This document shows, one piece after another, positions 14,382 to 32,820 of a DNA stretch of 36,402 bases. Each line of letters opens with the position of its first letter. The stretch's first letter is position 1. Below the pieces are notes generated by a model, which had not been told where the DNA came from, did no database searches, and saw only the letters and a program-made list of their open reading frames with translations. Source of the stretch: Methylocystis sp. ATCC 49242 (GTDB lineage Bacteria; Pseudomonadota; Alphaproteobacteria; Rhizobiales; Beijerinckiaceae); assembly GCF_000188155.2 (NCBI RefSeq), contig NZ_KE124771.1, forward strand, positions 1 to 36,402. Direction: 5' to 3'. Made by a program: the position numbers and the translations under genes.

Positions 14382-15088
14382 TCATTGCTGACCTCACCCG
14401 AATATTGAACGCCTCGTGCCTCGCGCCGAGGCCGCTTGAGTTGACGAAACACCGCCCATGTTCACGTCATATTCATCTCGTTTCATGATGCGAATCGCGT
14501 CGCGGTCTGCATGGCGCCAGTTTCGAAGAAAGATGTGTAATGGACGAAGCCAGTCGCCCCGTGTCAGCGACCAATTCAATACTTGCGGTTGTCATGACCG
14601 CGCGCACTTTCGACGCCCCTGACCGCGAGTGCGCCGGCTCATCGTGCTTTAACAGCACTGCGCAATCGTCAACGAACGCCTCGTTGAGCGGCACGAATCT
14701 GGATCAGCAGGATTTGCGGTTCGATATCGAAGAGGAATCTATTACCGTGGAAAAGCAGAGCTAGCCTCTGCTGGGTCTGTGATGACGAAGTGTGTGGGGT
14801 GCCTGAGGCCTGACTGAAAGCCCTTTCGAAATTCGTGAATTTTGAGAAATCGAGCCGATGGCAAAAGGAAGTCCTTTTGCAAGCGCAATTTCTGGATGTG
14901 ATCGGCCTATCGCGCAATTCAGGGTCGCGCCGCACATCGCGACGCTGACGCCCGTCGACGTCGTTCGTAGCAGCGCATGCGGGACGAGTACGCGGCCCGC
15001 GGCGCTACGGCGTGAAGACGCGCCGTGAGTCTTGAAAAGTGCGTGGCCTTTGTTGCGGGACTCTCATGGTTATGGCAACTGTCGATTC
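14382..15088. other. Gene-free region upstream of the trpS leader
   Basis: About 700 bases without a gene I can support. Short frames exist on both strands (for example 14473-14694 minus, with PLNEAFVDDCAVLLKHDEP), but none has a good start or a recognisable motif. Base composition between 14690 and 14900 is lower in GC than the neighbours, which could be decayed foreign DNA. The promoter of the trpS leader must lie near the right edge. Confidence 0.4.
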
Positions 15089-15139
15089 ATGACCGATCGC
15101 GCAAAGCCTATGACCGCTCGCTGGTGGCGCTCCTTCTAG
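15089..15139 (+). CDS. Tryptophan leader peptide, attenuator of trpS
   Basis: A 16-residue frame, MTDRAKPMTARWWRSF, has two consecutive Trp codons (15122-15127) near its end and a TAG at 15137. Tandem Trp codons in a short peptide just upstream of a Trp-related gene are the hallmark of ribosome-mediated attenuation. No good Shine-Dalgarno sequence precedes the ATG; rhizobial trpL can be leaderless. A second short frame, MVMATVDS (from 15066), overlaps its start by ATGA. The alternative start is the internal ATG at codon 8. Confidence 0.75.
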   Translation: MTDRAKPMTARWWRSF

Positions 15140-15239
15140 GGAGCGGCGCGTCGTCATTTTGAAATTTACGACCCCTGCCGCCGTCATTCGGCAGACATGG
15201 GTCGGCAATTTTCCGGACAGGTCTTTGATTGACGGCGGC
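15128..15239 (+). promoter_or_regulatory. Candidate attenuator RNA structures of trpS
   Basis: Directly after the Trp codons, CGCTCC (15128-15133) can pair with GGAGCG (15140-15145); a ribosome stalled on the Trp codons would block this. Farther on, CTGCCG (15175) can pair with CGGCAG (15189) or with CGGCA (15203), the latter followed by ATTTT. GCCGCCGTCA (15177-15186) is also perfectly complementary over 10 bp to TGACGGCGGC (15230-15239), which ends nine bases before the ribosome site. These structures exclude one another, as an attenuator requires. The exact scheme is inference. Confidence 0.5.
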
Positions 15240-15258
15240 TCCATCGCGGAGAAGCCCA

Positions 15259-16359
15259 ATGACCTTTCGGAAAGACGCCCGTCCCGTGATCCTCACGGGA
15301 GATCGCACCACCGGCCCGCTGCATCTCGGGCATTTTGTCGGTTCGCTGCGCAATCGCGTGGCGCTTCAGCACAGCCATCGCCAATATCTGCTCCTCGCCG
15401 ACGCGCAGGCCCTGACGGACAACGCTCACGATCCGGGGAAGGTCCGGCGCAACGTGCTCGAAGTGGCGCTGGATTATCTCGCGGTCGGGATCGATCCTGG
15501 CGTCACGACGATCTGTCTTCAGTCTGCGCTGCCGGCGCTGGCGGAATTGACGATGCTCTATCTCAACTTCGTCACCGTCGCGCGCCTTGAGCGCAATCCG
15601 ACGATCAAGGAAGAGATCCAGGCCCGCGGCTTCGGACGCGATATTCCCGCCGGCTTCATCTGTTACCCGGCGGCCCAGGCGGCCGACATCACCGCCTTCA
15701 GGGCGACGATCGTTCCGGTCGGCGAGGATCAGGCGCCGCTCATCGAGCAGACGAACGAGATCGTGCGCCGCATCAACCGCCAGGCGGGACGCGACATCCT
15801 GGCCGAGGCGCGTGCGCTTATCCCGGAGATGGGCCGGCTTCCCGGTGTCGACGGCAAAGCCAAGATGAGCAAGTCGCAGGGGAACGCCATTCCCTTATCG
15901 GCATCGGACGCCGAGATCGCGGAAGCGGTGAACCGCATGTACACGGACCCGGACCATCTCCGCGTGAGCGATCCTGGCCGCGTCGAGGGGAATGTCGTCT
16001 TCACCTATCTCGACGCCTTCGACGAAGACAGGGATGCGCTGAACGAGCTGAAGGCGCATTACCGGCGCGGCGGGCTTGGCGACATGACTCTCAAGCAGCG
16101 TCTCGCTTCCATTCTGCGGGAGATCGTCGGGCCGATCCGTGAGCGCCGCGCGGCGCTCGCACGCGATCCCGACCATGTGCTCGACATTATCCGAACGGGC
16201 ACCCTGGCCGGGCGGGAAAGAACGAAAGTCACGCTGGAAGAAATCAGCACGGCGTTGGGGTTGTTTTCCCTGGATGGGCAGGCAAACGGCTTCAGGGCCA
16301 GATCAGCGTTAGGTCTGGGGATGTCTCCGCCCACTTTGGGAGGAGAAGGCGGAGCTTGA
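15259..16359 (+). CDS. trpS: Tryptophanyl-tRNA synthetase, type II-like
   Basis: A 366-residue class I aminoacyl-tRNA synthetase that charges tRNA-Trp. The HIGH motif is HLGH (22-25) within [18 protein letters not shown] and the KMSKS motif is exact (202-206, KMSKSQGN). The arrangement [17 protein letters not shown] and [20 protein letters not shown] recalls the second-type TrpRS of Deinococcus and actinomycetes rather than the housekeeping E. coli type. Such second enzymes can confer resistance to indolmycin-like inhibitors. ATG 15259 has GGAGAAG at the right distance; the in-frame extension to 15229 does not. The leader peptide and dyads upstream imply regulation by Trp-tRNA charging, and a strong terminator follows. 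Confidence 0.93.
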
Positions 16360-16404: not shown

Positions 16405-16444
16405 GCTTCGTAGCCCTCCTCCTTGGGCATTTCCTCCCTGACTT

Positions 16445-16473
16445 GGCCGCTGGAACCCCCAGCGGCCTTTTTT
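16445..16473 (+). terminator. Rho-independent terminator of trpS
   Basis: A perfect 9-bp stem, GGCCGCTGG with CCAGCGGCC, and a 5-base loop are followed by TTTTTT. It lies 86 bases after the trpS stop codon. Confidence 0.92.
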
Positions 16474-16839
16474 CCGGAACCAAGGTGAGGGTTCGCCGCC
16501 GGGCCTCGTCAAGCCGATGCGGGCGTGTGAGCAGGGCGAACAGTCTCCAGGAGCGGGCGAGATCGTCGGTTTCGGGATTTTGGGGCATAAAGCCGCTCCC
16601 CGGGCTTTCTCAGATGCATCAAGTCGACCGCGGGCTGGATGGACACGTACGTCGTTGTCGATGTGAATAACAGTCAATCGGATCGACGATTGGTGTGCCG
16701 ACGGGTGTTCCTGGGCAACTTGCGAATATGCTTTCGTGATAAAAATGCGTGTTAATTCAACATATTACAAGACGATGCCTGCTGCGCGATGCTGGAATGT
16801 CCAAGTGAATCGCTGGCCCGCTTTTGATAAAACCAAAAA

Positions 16840-29008: not shown

Positions 29009-29275
29009 TCAGGACGCCCTGTTTCGATCGCGCCGGATGTAATCGAGCGCCTCTGTGGCGTCGATCAGTCCACGGACGCCGAGAAGACCGAGAAGCCTGA
29101 CGAATGGCGCCATCTCATTGCCGGAGCCCTGCATGATCGCGAACACGGCTACGGCGTTATCGTCCGACATGGCGCGAATATACGGGGCGAGCATCGCCGC
29201 GTTGCCGCTTGCAAGATAGTGGTCGAGGAGGTCGATCGCCTCCGTATGGCTGGCGATCTGAGGCTGTGACGACAT
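29009..29275 (-). CDS. Small hypothetical protein
   Basis: An 88-residue soluble, helical protein, MSSQPQIASHTEAIDLLDHY, then YIRAMSDDNAVAVFAIMQGS, ending LIDATEALDYIRRDRN. GGAGAGAC precedes the ATG at 29275. The in-frame extension to 29470 overlaps the dispersed repeat and is not used. It converges on the relaxase gene. The function is unknown. Confidence 0.6.
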   Translation of the reverse strand: MSSQPQIASHTEAIDLLDHYLASGNAAMLAPYIRAMSDDNAVAVFAIMQGSGNEMAPFVRLLGLLGVRGLIDATEALDYIRRDRNRAS

Positions 29276-29389
29276 TGTCTCTCCGGCAGCGAAGCTGCAG
29301 CGACCATCATTGTAACCAAAGGCAGGCCGGGAAGCGATCATCATGGTCGCCATGGCGGACCTGCGACCAGTGTTCCGGCTTCGCTTGGG

Positions 29390-29661
29390 CGCCACGATCT
29401 TTCCAGTTGGTGAAGGCGAGCGCATCGCGTGCTGTCTCGCGTCGGGAATCCTGGCCCAGGACGGGGACAAACCACATCCGAATCGGAAACGGCGGAAATC
29501 CGCCGCTCATTCCTTACGAAAGGGTTAGGCCACGCCGTCGCGGACGCCTCAAGGCAACCCCTCCGGGGCGCTTCGCGGCCTTGACCCGCCCGCGCCAGCG
29601 CGGCGGAGGGCTTACCGCGCCAATGCCCAAGTCTGGGCTTTGGCACATCTTTTCACGCGGG
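29390..29661. repeat. Dispersed ~270-bp repeat, copy B
   Basis: Inverted relative to copy A at 5832-6100. It starts CGCCACGATCTTTCCAG and ends with a hairpin (CCAATGCCCA against TGGGCTTTGG) and CTTTTCACG. Two bases of the stem have changed in step between the copies (CCGA/TCGG in A, CCCA/TGGG in B). It lies just before the nucleosidase gene and may contain its promoter. Confidence 0.75.
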
Positions 29662-29745
29662 ATACGCACAATCCGCCACTGCGGAATGGTGGAGAACGGA
29701 AAAAGAACAGTTGTCCGCCGTTTATCAAGGCAGTATGCCGAAACG

Positions 29746-32700
29746 ATGACCACAAAAGACAAGCTTCCTGAGTATTTCGACATCGGCTTGGTAGTGCCAC
29801 TTGAGGAGGAACTGCTTCAAGTCATAGACCAGTTCCCGAGCGTGGACGATCGGAGCACCGACACGGTCTTCTGCCATGCCGTCAACAGCGGGAAGCCCAA
29901 CATCCGCATGATCGTGGTGCAGCAGCAAGGCATGGGGAGGACGCACGCGATGAACGCGGCGAACTTCCTTCTAGAGCGCTATGACATCGGTTTGATGATG
30001 TGCCTCGGCATCGCGGGCAGCCTGAGCGACGATATGCGCCTTGGCAGTGTCTGCTACAGCGGGAAGATCGCTGACGTCCTCGATAACAACAAAATAACCG
30101 ATCTTGACGACGACAGTTCGGACACAGAGTTCTCGCCCACGCACTACGATACGCCGGACAAGTTTACTCATGCCTTCGGCTACATGCGCACGCAGCCCCA
30201 TCTGCGTCCAATTTACCTGCAGTGGCAGGAACAGCGGAAGTCAGTCGCCGAGAAACTGGTCGCCGACGAGGTGCCCGCTCCCGGTGGCAAGACTGAACGG
30301 ATCGCCGAACCGAAGACGCAGAATGGCGTGATCGTGTGCGGGATGGTGAGCAAGAGCGAGACCTACAACAAGAAACTCCGGGCAGTTGACCGTGCTCTTC
30401 TCGCTATCGAAACCGAGTCCGGAGGCGTGTTCTCGCAGGCCAGATACCACGGCGAACGTCCGGCGATGACGGTCCGCGGCATCTCCGACTACGCAGACAA
30501 GGGCAAGAAAAAGCTTGAGTACGCCAGCAAGGGCGGCGTTCGCACCCTTGCGGCGGCGAACGCCGCCAGCTTCCTGCATCTCCAGATCACCAGAAACCCT
30601 TACTTCGAGAAGGCGTTGCAGGAGCGTCGGAGCGGTAACCAAGAGACGCTCCTGCTGACAGCCAGCCCGGTCGAGAAGGATCTGATCACTGAAAGCATAG
30701 AGTTGGTGACCAAGGAAATCGACGAGGCTCTCCGCAAGCTGTCGCCGGAGTACAAGCTGCAGCATAAGGGTTACAGACTCCCGATGCCGCGCGTCCGGCG
30801 TTCTGCCGAGGACGCTCTGGTCCAAAGAGATGACACACCAGTTGACGTTCGCGACGTTCTCAAAACCCGTGACCGGATTGTGCTCAGCATTCCCCGCACC
30901 TATCCGGACCAGAGTCTGCCGTGGGTCATCGCGAGCGATCTGCTGACAACCGAACTCGATGATCGGCAGACTATGCCCGTCGTCATCGATGGCGAAAACA
31001 TCCGCGGCAAAAAGACTACCTTCGCGGAGATCGTCTCGCCCGACCTCGCCCAGATTAATGACCACGCGGGTGCGCGCCTGGTCTTCATCATCGAGAACAT
31101 GCCGTTCACCTCGAAGCATCGAGTTGAGGCGATCCTGGACGAGGTGGAAAAATATCATGACGCGAAATGCATCTTCATCGTCCAAGGCGATGACGCTCTG
31201 ATCGGGGAGTCGAACTTCGCTAGTAGGTCGGCCGCCGTGCATTACGACAGCTGCGAAATCTCATTTCTCGAGATCGCCCACTTCATTGAGAAAAATTTCG
31301 GGATGAGTGGCGATGAGTCCGAGGTCATCGCCAAGAGGCTGCGGGATACATTCTATGAATTCAGCCTGGATGCCCACCCAACCTACTTTGCGGGCATCCC
31401 GCGCGAAACCCTCTCGGCTTTGCTCCAAGCCAACCGGCGTTCAGAACTCATCCAGCTTGCGGTCGATGGCTTTCTCACGTTCATCGTTGCGGGTGACAAG
31501 GCCGATGTGGCTTTGGGCAAAAAGGCCCGCTCCCGCTTTTTGCGGAACCTCACCGTCGAGATGATGCTTGAAAAGCGCTCGTTCGACCAAGCCGAGCTCA
31601 TCGCCTTCACCAAGGTGTTCGCCGATCGTCATGACTTCGACATCGACCCCTTGGCGTTCATCAACGGGTTCGTCGATCAGGGTATCATGCACTTTGAATC
31701 CGGGAAGGCGCGAATCTCCCTGCCGTTCATCGAGTCGTACCTACTCGCGGCCGAGCTCGCGGCGAAGCCTGAGCTGGCCAAGCGCTACTTCGTCATCGAC
31801 CAAGATTTCGATTTCGCAACGTTCGATCTGTACGCAGAAATTGGAGCGGCACCCGACATAATAATCCGCATTAAGGACGCCTTGGAGGCGTCAATTGCGG
31901 AACTGAGGGCGAAGAACCCCGGAGAGAACATTCTCCTCGGCGAATGTATTTTCCCGGCCACCGTCCGACGCCAGGAATCCACCAACCGCCTCAAGCAGCG
32001 TCTCCAGGACGCAACCAGGGCCGTGCGCGATGGCGCGCGCAATGCGGTCGAGAAGCAGAAGGTTCTGGACCAGTCCGATCGAATTCGCGAAGCGGTCGGC
32101 CGGCAGCGCGGAGCCCAGATGGGCGAAGAGGACGAGGCCTGGACGAAGAAGTTTGAGCCCCTCGAACAGGCCTGGCTCTCCTGGACCGTTGCCACAGTCC
32201 TTCTTGGGGCCGGTGCCGAACATCTAGAAGCCGACGACAAACGCTGCCTGAGCACATTCCTGGTCACAGGCGCGGCGGCGGTGATCGATGAATGGTGCCG
32301 TCTACAGCTTGAGATCGACTTCGAGGCAATGAAGCGGGCTCTCACAGCCGATGAGGCCCTTGCGAATATGCCTGGGCCCGGCGAGCTCGAAGAAAAGCGT
32401 CAGTTCGTCAGCGATGTTGTCGACATCATCGAATATACCTCGATGGCCGTGCCGGTGCAGCGCGTGATGCACTTTCTGTCGGAGCAGGCGCGACACCGCG
32501 TCCTATCGCCGAGCGTCGACAAGGCGGAGGTTGAGGGGGTCCTTGAGCAGGTCCTCCGCAGCACCTGGCTGATCGACATTGATCCGGAAAAGGGTCGCAA
32601 GCCGCTGCGGGAGGCCATAAAGAAACTACCCAGCGCCACTTTCTTCCGTGTCATAATGGTCGGCCACTATATGACTCGTGTCTACTGGTCCCATTGGAAG

Positions 32701-32820
32701 AAGAAAGACAGGCTCACGCTGCTCGATGCCGCTGAGGAGATTCTGCAGCAGCTTGAGATCGATATCGACAAGGCCAAGATAAAGCGGCTGATTGAGGAAG
32801 ACGAGAAGAAGGTCACCTGA
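29746..32820 (+). CDS. PNP-type nucleosidase fused to STAND-like region, putative antiphage effector
   Basis: A 1024-residue protein. Residues 10-285 form a purine nucleoside phosphorylase/MTA-SAH nucleosidase-type domain: IGLVVPLEEELL with an acidic residue at the MTAN Glu12 position, MCLGIAGSLSDDMRLGSVCY, AIETESGG (catalytic Glu) and VRGISDYAD (catalytic Asp). Residues 375-510 look like a decayed NTPase: PVVIDGENIRGKKTT resembles a Walker A (GxxxxGKK) and LVFIIENM a Walker B. The remaining 500 residues are helical, likely a sensor. Nucleosidases of this fold act as immune effectors that cleave ATP after phage infection. ATG 29746 begins the domain; it lacks a good ribosome site, so an upstream in-frame ATG near 29686 is possible. 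Confidence 0.8.
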   Translation: MTTKDKLPEYFDIGLVVPLEEELLQVIDQFPSVDDRSTDTVFCHAVNSGKPNIRMIVVQQQGMGRTHAMNAANFLLERYDIGLMMCLGIAGSLSDDMRLGSVCYSGKIADVLDNNKITDLDDDSSDTEFSPTHYDTPDKFTHAFGYMRTQPHLRPIYLQWQEQRKSVAEKLVADEVPAPGGKTERIAEPKTQNGVIVCGMVSKSETYNKKLRAVDRALLAIETESGGVFSQARYHGERPAMTVRGISDYADKGKKKLEYASKGGVRTLAAANAASFLHLQITRNPYFEKALQERRSGNQETLLLTASPVEKDLITESIELVTKEIDEALRKLSPEYKLQHKGYRLPMPRVRRSAEDALVQRDDTPVDVRDVLKTRDRIVLSIPRTYPDQSLPWVIASDLLTTELDDRQTMPVVIDGENIRGKKTTFAEIVSPDLAQINDHAGARLVFIIENMPFTSKHRVEAILDEVEKYHDAKCIFIVQGDDALIGESNFASRSAAVHYDSCEISFLEIAHFIEKNFGMSGDESEVIAKRLRDTFYEFSLDAHPTYFAGIPRETLSALLQANRRSELIQLAVDGFLTFIVAGDKADVALGKKARSRFLRNLTVEMMLEKRSFDQAELIAFTKVFADRHDFDIDPLAFINGFVDQGIMHFESGKARISLPFIESYLLAAELAAKPELAKRYFVIDQDFDFATFDLYAEIGAAPDIIIRIKDALEASIAELRAKNPGENILLGECIFPATVRRQESTNRLKQRLQDATRAVRDGARNAVEKQKVLDQSDRIREAVGRQRGAQMGEEDEAWTKKFEPLEQAWLSWTVATVLLGAGAEHLEADDKRCLSTFLVTGAAAVIDEWCRLQLEIDFEAMKRALTADEALANMPGPGELEEKRQFVSDVVDIIEYTSMAVPVQRVMHFLSEQARHRVLSPSVDKAEVEGVLEQVLRSTWLIDIDPEKGRKPLREAIKKLPSATFFRVIMVGHYMTRVYWSHWKKKDRLTLLDAAEEILQQLEIDIDKAKIKRLIEEDEKKVT

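Follow-up and report, generated by a model that had tools for sequence, protein, structure and literature searches.

A 2010 study by Vecchione and Sello reportedly describes, in the words of its title, the 'ribosome-mediated transcriptional attenuation' of an auxiliary antibiotic-resistant tryptophanyl-tRNA synthetase (TrpRS). The enzyme encoded by pheST is presumably the housekeeping synthetase. The gammaproteobacterial pheST operon, which encodes the Phe enzyme, is controlled by leader-peptide attenuation like that considered here, and an attenuator of Streptomyces trpS2 was predicted in 2005, as described in the available passages of one paper (PMC1262725). According to the passages of another, the Streptomyces auxiliary TrpRS is indolmycin-resistant (PMC9437257). 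In Sinorhizobium meliloti, the alphaproteobacterial trpLE(G) attenuator carries consecutive Trp codons, its transcript starts at the ATG of the leader trpL, and it controls Trp biosynthesis and ends in a terminator, as far as the available passages describe it (PMC7298713).

The locus reported here is compared with these systems by their descriptions. It shares the auxiliary TrpRS, the Trp-codon leader and probable attenuation with the Streptomyces TrpRS1/trpS2 system, and the alphaproteobacterial setting, the consecutive Trp codons and the probable start at the leader ATG with S. meliloti. In contrast to the classical attenuator of Actinobacteria, it occurs in Proteobacteria and on plasmids, its leader mRNA is probably leaderless, an extra element (element 5) lies beside the Shine-Dalgarno (SD) sequence, and no intrinsic terminator is present in its class. 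The sequence-only reading had placed a Trp-codon leader on a spare synthetase; the leader proves to be conserved upstream of homologues, whereas the principle is already known, given the Streptomyces precedent. The proteobacterial and plasmid spread, the leaderless ORF, the five-element RNA and the codon-swapped relatives look new. Searching titles, abstracts and passages, with few subscription papers covered, we found no paper that describes a comparable trpS leader from Proteobacteria. We consider it likely that the auxiliary TrpRS of this locus is inducible and under the control of a ribosome-mediated attenuator.

The window, meaning the whole stretch of 36,402 nucleotides analysed (G000:C3:1-36402), belongs to a genome of 4.7 Mb in 6 contigs. 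Its genes for a MobQ relaxase and for a partition ATPase of the ParA type make it likely that the replicon is a plasmid, in agreement with the earlier description of the synthetase as plasmid-borne. A 1203-codon ORF at 29209–32820 also lies in the window, and the Pfam match in this large protein is limited to a phosphorylase-superfamily (PNP_UDP_1) domain. The predicted 16-residue leader with tandem Trp codons is present ahead of trpS at 15089–15139, with TGG TGG at 15122–15127, and the trpS SD sequence GGAG is at 15248–15251. The features, all on the forward strand, are given below.

15053–15081, forward strand: predicted promoter, -35 TTGCGG at 15053–15058 and weak -10 at about 15076–15081, placed by position alone in the window.
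15089–15139, forward strand: leader ORF of 16 residues (MTDRAKPMTARWWRSF, then stop), ending in WWRSF-stop and conserved 5' of homologues.
15128–15133, forward strand: element 1 (CGCTCC), partner of element 2, with 97.6% of cells paired and both-side changes in 3 of 6 pairs.
15140–15154, forward strand: element 2 (GGAGCGGC..GTCGT), partner of element 1 or 3.
15168–15186, forward strand: element 3 (ACGACCCCTGCCGCCGTCA), whose core at 15177–15186 is complementary to elements 2, 4 and 5.
15189–15203, forward strand: element 4 (CGGCAGACATGGGTC), partner of element 3 in a probable OFF hairpin.
15230–15239, forward strand: element 5 (TGACGGCGGC), a perfect 10-bp complement of 15177–15186 that adjoins the SD hairpin.
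15239–15251, forward strand: CTCC..GGAG hairpin over the trpS SD sequence, assessed by the duplex test.
15259–16359, forward strand: trpS, an auxiliary TrpRS II-like enzyme of 366 aa starting at ATG 15259, with Gln50 at the position of Bst His43.
16406–16482, forward strand: RF00519 suhB/mmgR-type sRNA containing the terminator stem 16445–16467, probably an unrelated neighbour.

By WW leader we mean a short ORF that carries WW close to its stop codon and ends about 60–220 nt 5' of trpS. Such a leader precedes 62 of 114 homologous trpS loci (80 species-genome loci, 26 from further genome searches, 7 plasmid loci and the window). Six loci were excluded before the count: two copies of the window locus (L001, L091), the sRNA locus L090, a different TrpRS (L002), and L085 and L086, whose upstream region resembles that of L084. 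One counted locus, L109, has the same leader region as L035 and is absent from alignment A1 and the promoter count. The controls gave 0/114 on the reverse strand, 17/5700 in dinucleotide shuffles and 47/6308 in flanking windows, and on these controls we rejected coincidence. Conservation upstream of other trpS genes, which the sequence-only reading had made one of its two tests, is thus found. Among the 52 misses, some are single-Trp leaders (L036, L049, L050, L052, L083, L093, L102, L117) and others longer-tailed leaders (L003, L047, L055, L064), while many of the remaining misses, including the Acinetobacter loci, show no leader. The leader tail varies by lineage: Hyphomicrobiales have WWRSF or WWRST, Rhodobacterales and some other groups have WWLA, and Oxalobacteraceae have WWRR. 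An in-frame ATG stands 9–12 codons 5' of WW in 63/65 loci, and the leader peptide otherwise diverges.

The gene is patchily spread and is also carried by plasmids. It occurs in 6/101, 7/385 and 16/397 genomes in three counts that each include the host, and 127 plasmid records cover 80% of the query. In the seven plasmid loci examined from these records, WW is present in Rhizobium ruizarguesonis, Roseibium, Agrobacterium, Bosea and one E. coli plasmid, and lacking in Acetobacter (one Trp) and the R. leguminosarum plasmid L115 (none). The E. coli plasmid (L119, NZ_CP090457) carries trpS-II with the leader MNRNVVISHLRRWWLPA and a terminator hairpin, and an IS26-type transposase gene lies upstream. 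A trpS homologue is also found on the M. rosea plasmids CP034087 and CP034088, and at the same coordinates in the same-genus genome G018.

The leader goes with auxiliary status. TrpRS genes were counted in 69 genomes and the host, using 64 of the 80 species-genome loci (nine Acinetobacter loci and L042, L053, L056, L062, L068, L073 and L074 were left out), and five WW leaders whose tail is longer or whose spacing differs were added (L003, L047, L051, L055, L064). On this basis, a WW leader precedes 40 of the 51 auxiliary loci, compared with 2 of the 19 that encode the sole detected TrpRS (Fisher 3e-7), seven of the 19 being from Acinetobacter and four from Cupriavidus, and 'sole' being weak for L054 and L070 because both are draft metagenome bins. 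Counted by genus, the figures are 27/34 and 2/9 (p 0.003). Independent pairs on the gene tree average 2.8 in the expected direction against 0.2, too few for significance. Cupriavidus shows the same division: the leader is present where there are two TrpRSs (L012, L075) and absent where one is detected (L008, L009, L011, L015). Eleven auxiliary loci have no WW leader; five of them have a single-Trp leader (L036, L049, L050, L052, L083), the codon is lost in L004, and no leader was recognised at L028, L058, L061, L067 and L069.

Alignment A1, with 42 sequences of the window's class (class S), reveals the paired elements. Helices 1:2 and 3:5 together have 95.3% of cells paired and 8 of 16 pairs changed on both sides. 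The number of both-side-changed cells is 47, compared with 13.2 ± 3.0 in shuffles (0/500), and the signal falls sharply when the partner is slid; 3:5 alone has 94% of cells paired and both-side changes in 5 of 10 pairs. In the duplex test, each arm is set against its own partner and those of other sequences, using 33 non-redundant sequences. Here 3:5 (z -7.7), 1:2 (-6.1), 3:4 (-6.1) and the SD hairpin (-3.2) stand out, 2:3 does not (z -1.3, p 0.097), and three control pairings over the 33 sequences give no significance; pairings 2:5 and 1:5/SD are likewise unsupported. The SD hairpin has a mean energy of -6.8 kcal/mol over the 42 sequences and -5.3 in the window. By fixed columns, 3:4 is weak and barely above shuffles, and 2:3 shows no covariation in A1, its core being nearly invariant and hence neutral. 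Among ten alphaproteobacterial sequences of the terminator class, 3:5 gives p 0.06. By these comparisons, element 3 has one well supported partner and two probable alternatives. Mutually exclusive pairings had been proposed for this RNA: 15177–15186 is indeed complementary to three other segments, while 3:4 covaries in one of two tests and 2:3 in neither. An Rfam 15 search over 14900–15300 gave no match at the gathering score and three weak matches far below it.

The leader stop falls in the 1:2 loop or within 3 nt of it in 40/42 aligned sequences, except in L003 and L004, so the codons and the stop are placed for a ribosome to mask element 1 or 2, as an attenuator demands. TGGTGG adjoins element 1. 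From this position, one might regard the WW leader as a by-product of RNA structure, TGGTGG being kept as an RNA or protein-binding site at the border of the conserved 1:2 hairpin. We think this very improbable, since the TGG columns lie outside the 1:2 helix, the in-frame ATG is kept while the peptide diverges, the promoter signal ends at that ATG, and relatives before tyrS carry TAT TAT in place of the Trp codons. The position outside the helix and the in-frame ATG likewise led us to reject a leader forced by RNA pairing alone.

That promoter signal is a TTG at -36 ± 1 of the leader ATG in 53/64 loci (mean at other positions 2.6), taking as leader ATG whichever in-frame ATG came closest to a distance of 11 codons from WW on its 5' side. 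An SD-like sequence precedes the leader ORF in just 4/64 loci, and a sigma-70 consensus scan of the window gave no site at the leader promoter. The conserved TTG spacing and the rarity of an SD sequence make a probable transcription start at the leader ATG or close to it, and a leader mRNA that is probably leaderless.

As an observation, the sequence-only reading largely holds. It also gave trpS its own strong terminator, and here it fails as described: the stem at 16445–16467 belongs to the RF00519 sRNA. We examined this downstream terminator as a part of the attenuator and rejected it, as it lies inside a separate sRNA, and RF00519 was not found in the stretches examined from 16 relatives. 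The host genome has a second RF00519 copy at C6:2545110-2545184. A terminator scan of the window found none in the leader region. In T-class relatives, however, 3:4 is an intrinsic terminator (18/26 sequences, 10/520 shuffles), compared with a terminator-like hairpin in 2/42 sequences of class S, to which the window belongs, which equals the shuffle rate (15/840); since we assigned sequences to S or T by eye, according to whether a terminator was present, 18/26 and 2/42 characterise the division and are no test of it. Class T comprises the WWLA alphas, L094, L096, L118, L119 and many betas and gammas, and alignment A2 holds 26 of its 27 sequences, L077 being omitted for a misassigned start.

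On the basis of these elements, we propose the following switch. The transcript would begin with the leader ATG or close to it, and translation of the leader would need no Shine-Dalgarno sequence. When Trp-tRNA is plentiful, the ribosome would reach the stop in the 1:2 loop and cover element 2, leaving element 3 to pair with element 4 as the OFF hairpin. When Trp-tRNA is scarce, because Trp runs short or the housekeeping TrpRS is inhibited, the ribosome would stall at the Trp codons and cover element 1; element 2 would then capture element 3 and keep element 4 off, which is the ON state. The ribosome footprint extends about 12 nt from the start of the A-site codon. With this footprint, element 1 is masked while the ribosome waits at the first Trp codon, and element 2 once it has reached the stop. 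Helix 3:4 is an intrinsic terminator in the terminator class (WWLA-type alphas, many betas and gammas) but not in the window's class, where control is probably exerted on trpS translation, the later pairing 3:5 probably loosening the SD hairpin in the ON state.

Folding an RNA that ends just after element 3, we find the core 0.76 paired with the ribosome at Trp and 0.32 with it at the stop. In the full RNA at equilibrium, region 3 is paired with elements 4 and 5 at 0.75 when stalled and 0.84 in the stop state (p 0.0007). SD accessibility at equilibrium is about the same in the two states in most sequences, the window included; it rises by at least 0.2 or nearly so in 5/64, for example L023, L042, L084 and L088. 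Equilibrium folding thus failed as proof of SD switching. Given this small contrast, the switch, if real, would be mainly kinetic.

We also compared SD freedom with helices forced. Over 33 sequences it is 0.284 with 3:5 and 0.175 with 3:4, and forced 2:3 leaves the SD as closed as 3:4 does (0.167 against 0.175). One example setting gives 0.29 and 0.17 (p 0.0035), and eight settings with 24–25 sequences give 0.25–0.35 for 3:5 and 0.16–0.22 for 3:4 (p 0.0002–0.14). We dropped 3:5 as a candidate SD sequestor, as forcing it made the SD slightly freer. The SD being freer with 3:5 than with 3:4, and 2:3 resembling 3:4, the models favour 3:4 as OFF, 3:5 as late ON and 2:3 as just keeping 3 off 4, with a modest effect.

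With the same sensor, the output in the window's class might instead be premature transcription termination at 3:4, by a weak U-run or Rho. The terminators of T-class relatives at this helix, its covariation in the duplex test, AATTTTCC soon after 3:4 in the window and the nearly equal SD accessibility of the two states all fit such an output. It would nevertheless leave the covariation of 3:5 and of the SD hairpin unexplained, and terminator-like hairpins in class S stay at the shuffle rate. We regard termination as a real possibility, though less likely than not, and keep translational control by 3:4 and 3:5 as the preferred reading.

Meanwhile, the same RNA is found before other genes. When 397 genomes of the order were searched with model R1, 25 strong and 12 weak matches came up. 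Sixteen strong matches precede trpS-II, and these, or an identical sequence, built R1; the sole match in the host genome is the trpS leader. One more strong match, in G696, precedes a trpS-II that reads in two frames. This locus (L153, G696:C1:3311000-3315500) represents a decayed gene or a sequencing error. The other eight precede an isochorismatase-family gene (L150:1470-2129, L151:1338-1970, L135, L136, L139, L141, L142, L144), assigned by Pfam for two and by 50–97% identity to one of those for six. All eight leaders have Tyr-Trp and four Phe-Tyr-Trp, ending in (F)-Y-W-R-F-L or G-Y-W-R-F-R.

Two weak matches (E 5e-4 and 1e-3) precede tyrS, at L152:1928-3190 (G774) and G830:C1:3141866-3143125. 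The leader, MIKNAPIAANYYATLP, lies about 95 nt upstream, carries tandem Tyr codons (TAT TAT), and is accompanied by a terminator-like hairpin. Both genomes have a second tyrS (51–52% identical), so the copy with the YY leader is auxiliary. None of 50 other tyrS loci read has a YY leader; one tyrS search matched 106 genomes, and 30 of those loci were read. As the two genomes are close relatives, the Tyr-codon version is, on these sequences, one lineage. The weak matches read, of the 12, are L145–L149 (the two tyrS leaders and three chance-like) and L155–L157, in which no trpS or isochorismatase match was found. The leader codons follow the gene, tyrS copies of the same architecture carrying Tyr-Tyr.

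The trpS product has the Pfam domain tRNA-synt_1b. Its closest solved structure is Deinococcus radiodurans TrpRS II (PDB 1yi8, 2a4m; E 8e-115), where a Gln aligns with Gln50, consistent with the earlier naming of a type II-like trpS. A second TrpRS on another contig (C6:1595576, 29% identity) matches ordinary bacterial TrpRS structures, so the window enzyme is indeed a spare, as had been supposed. Gln50 aligns with the His of this other TrpRS, equivalent to His43 of the Bacillus-type enzyme, a residue that contacts indolmycin; the numbering comes from aligned ranges (query 7 to chain 3), with no gap assumed before. His43 to Asn confers indolmycin resistance, and Asp132 and Gln147 are further determinants, by the available passages of PMC4899734. 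Asp132 and Gln147 are kept in the window enzyme, the numbering map being our own reading.

Gln occupies the His43 position in 114/114 relatives, sole TrpRSs included, among them the sole detected TrpRS of Acinetobacter and some Cupriavidus. We therefore take Gln to mark the enzyme family rather than selection for tolerance, and predict indolmycin resistance via Gln50 as a family trait. The attenuator could then be real and serve a purpose other than antibiotic tolerance, such as ordinary Trp starvation or another role of TrpRS II, as in Deinococcus, whose enzyme has a reported role related to nitric oxide in the passages available (PMC9437257). We give this purpose serious weight, a little under an even chance. 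The absence of a drug-selection sign at Gln50 speaks for it, as does the Deinococcus enzyme being the nearest solved structure, whereas the patchy spread and plasmid carriage fit a horizontally moved tolerance gene, and a second TrpRS by itself would be no cure for Trp starvation. Tolerance of TrpRS inhibitors may still be what the spare enzyme provides.

More broadly, and more tentatively, we suggest that modular proteobacterial RNAs with leaderless leaders sense loaded aromatic tRNAs through a tri-stable element 3, which would pair with 2, 4 or 5. In Hyphomicrobiales, the control would be translational, and 3:5 would form late to free the SD sequence from its sequestering hairpin. The codons would match the gene (Trp-Trp for auxiliary trpS, Tyr-Tyr for auxiliary tyrS, Tyr-Trp and often Phe-Tyr-Trp for the isochorismatase family), and mobile spare synthetases would bring the RNA along as a ready, drug-inducible backup.

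Our findings would take inducible target-bypass synthetases beyond Streptomyces, to plasmids and chromosomes of Alpha-, Beta- and Gammaproteobacteria, and add a covariation-supported RNA to those that Rfam 15 does not match. In one lineage, the leader before an auxiliary tyrS has Tyr codons instead, and this codon swap made by nature supports the logic of the sensor. The locus makes it a testable proposition that a spare synthetase moves together with a device sensing its own substrate.
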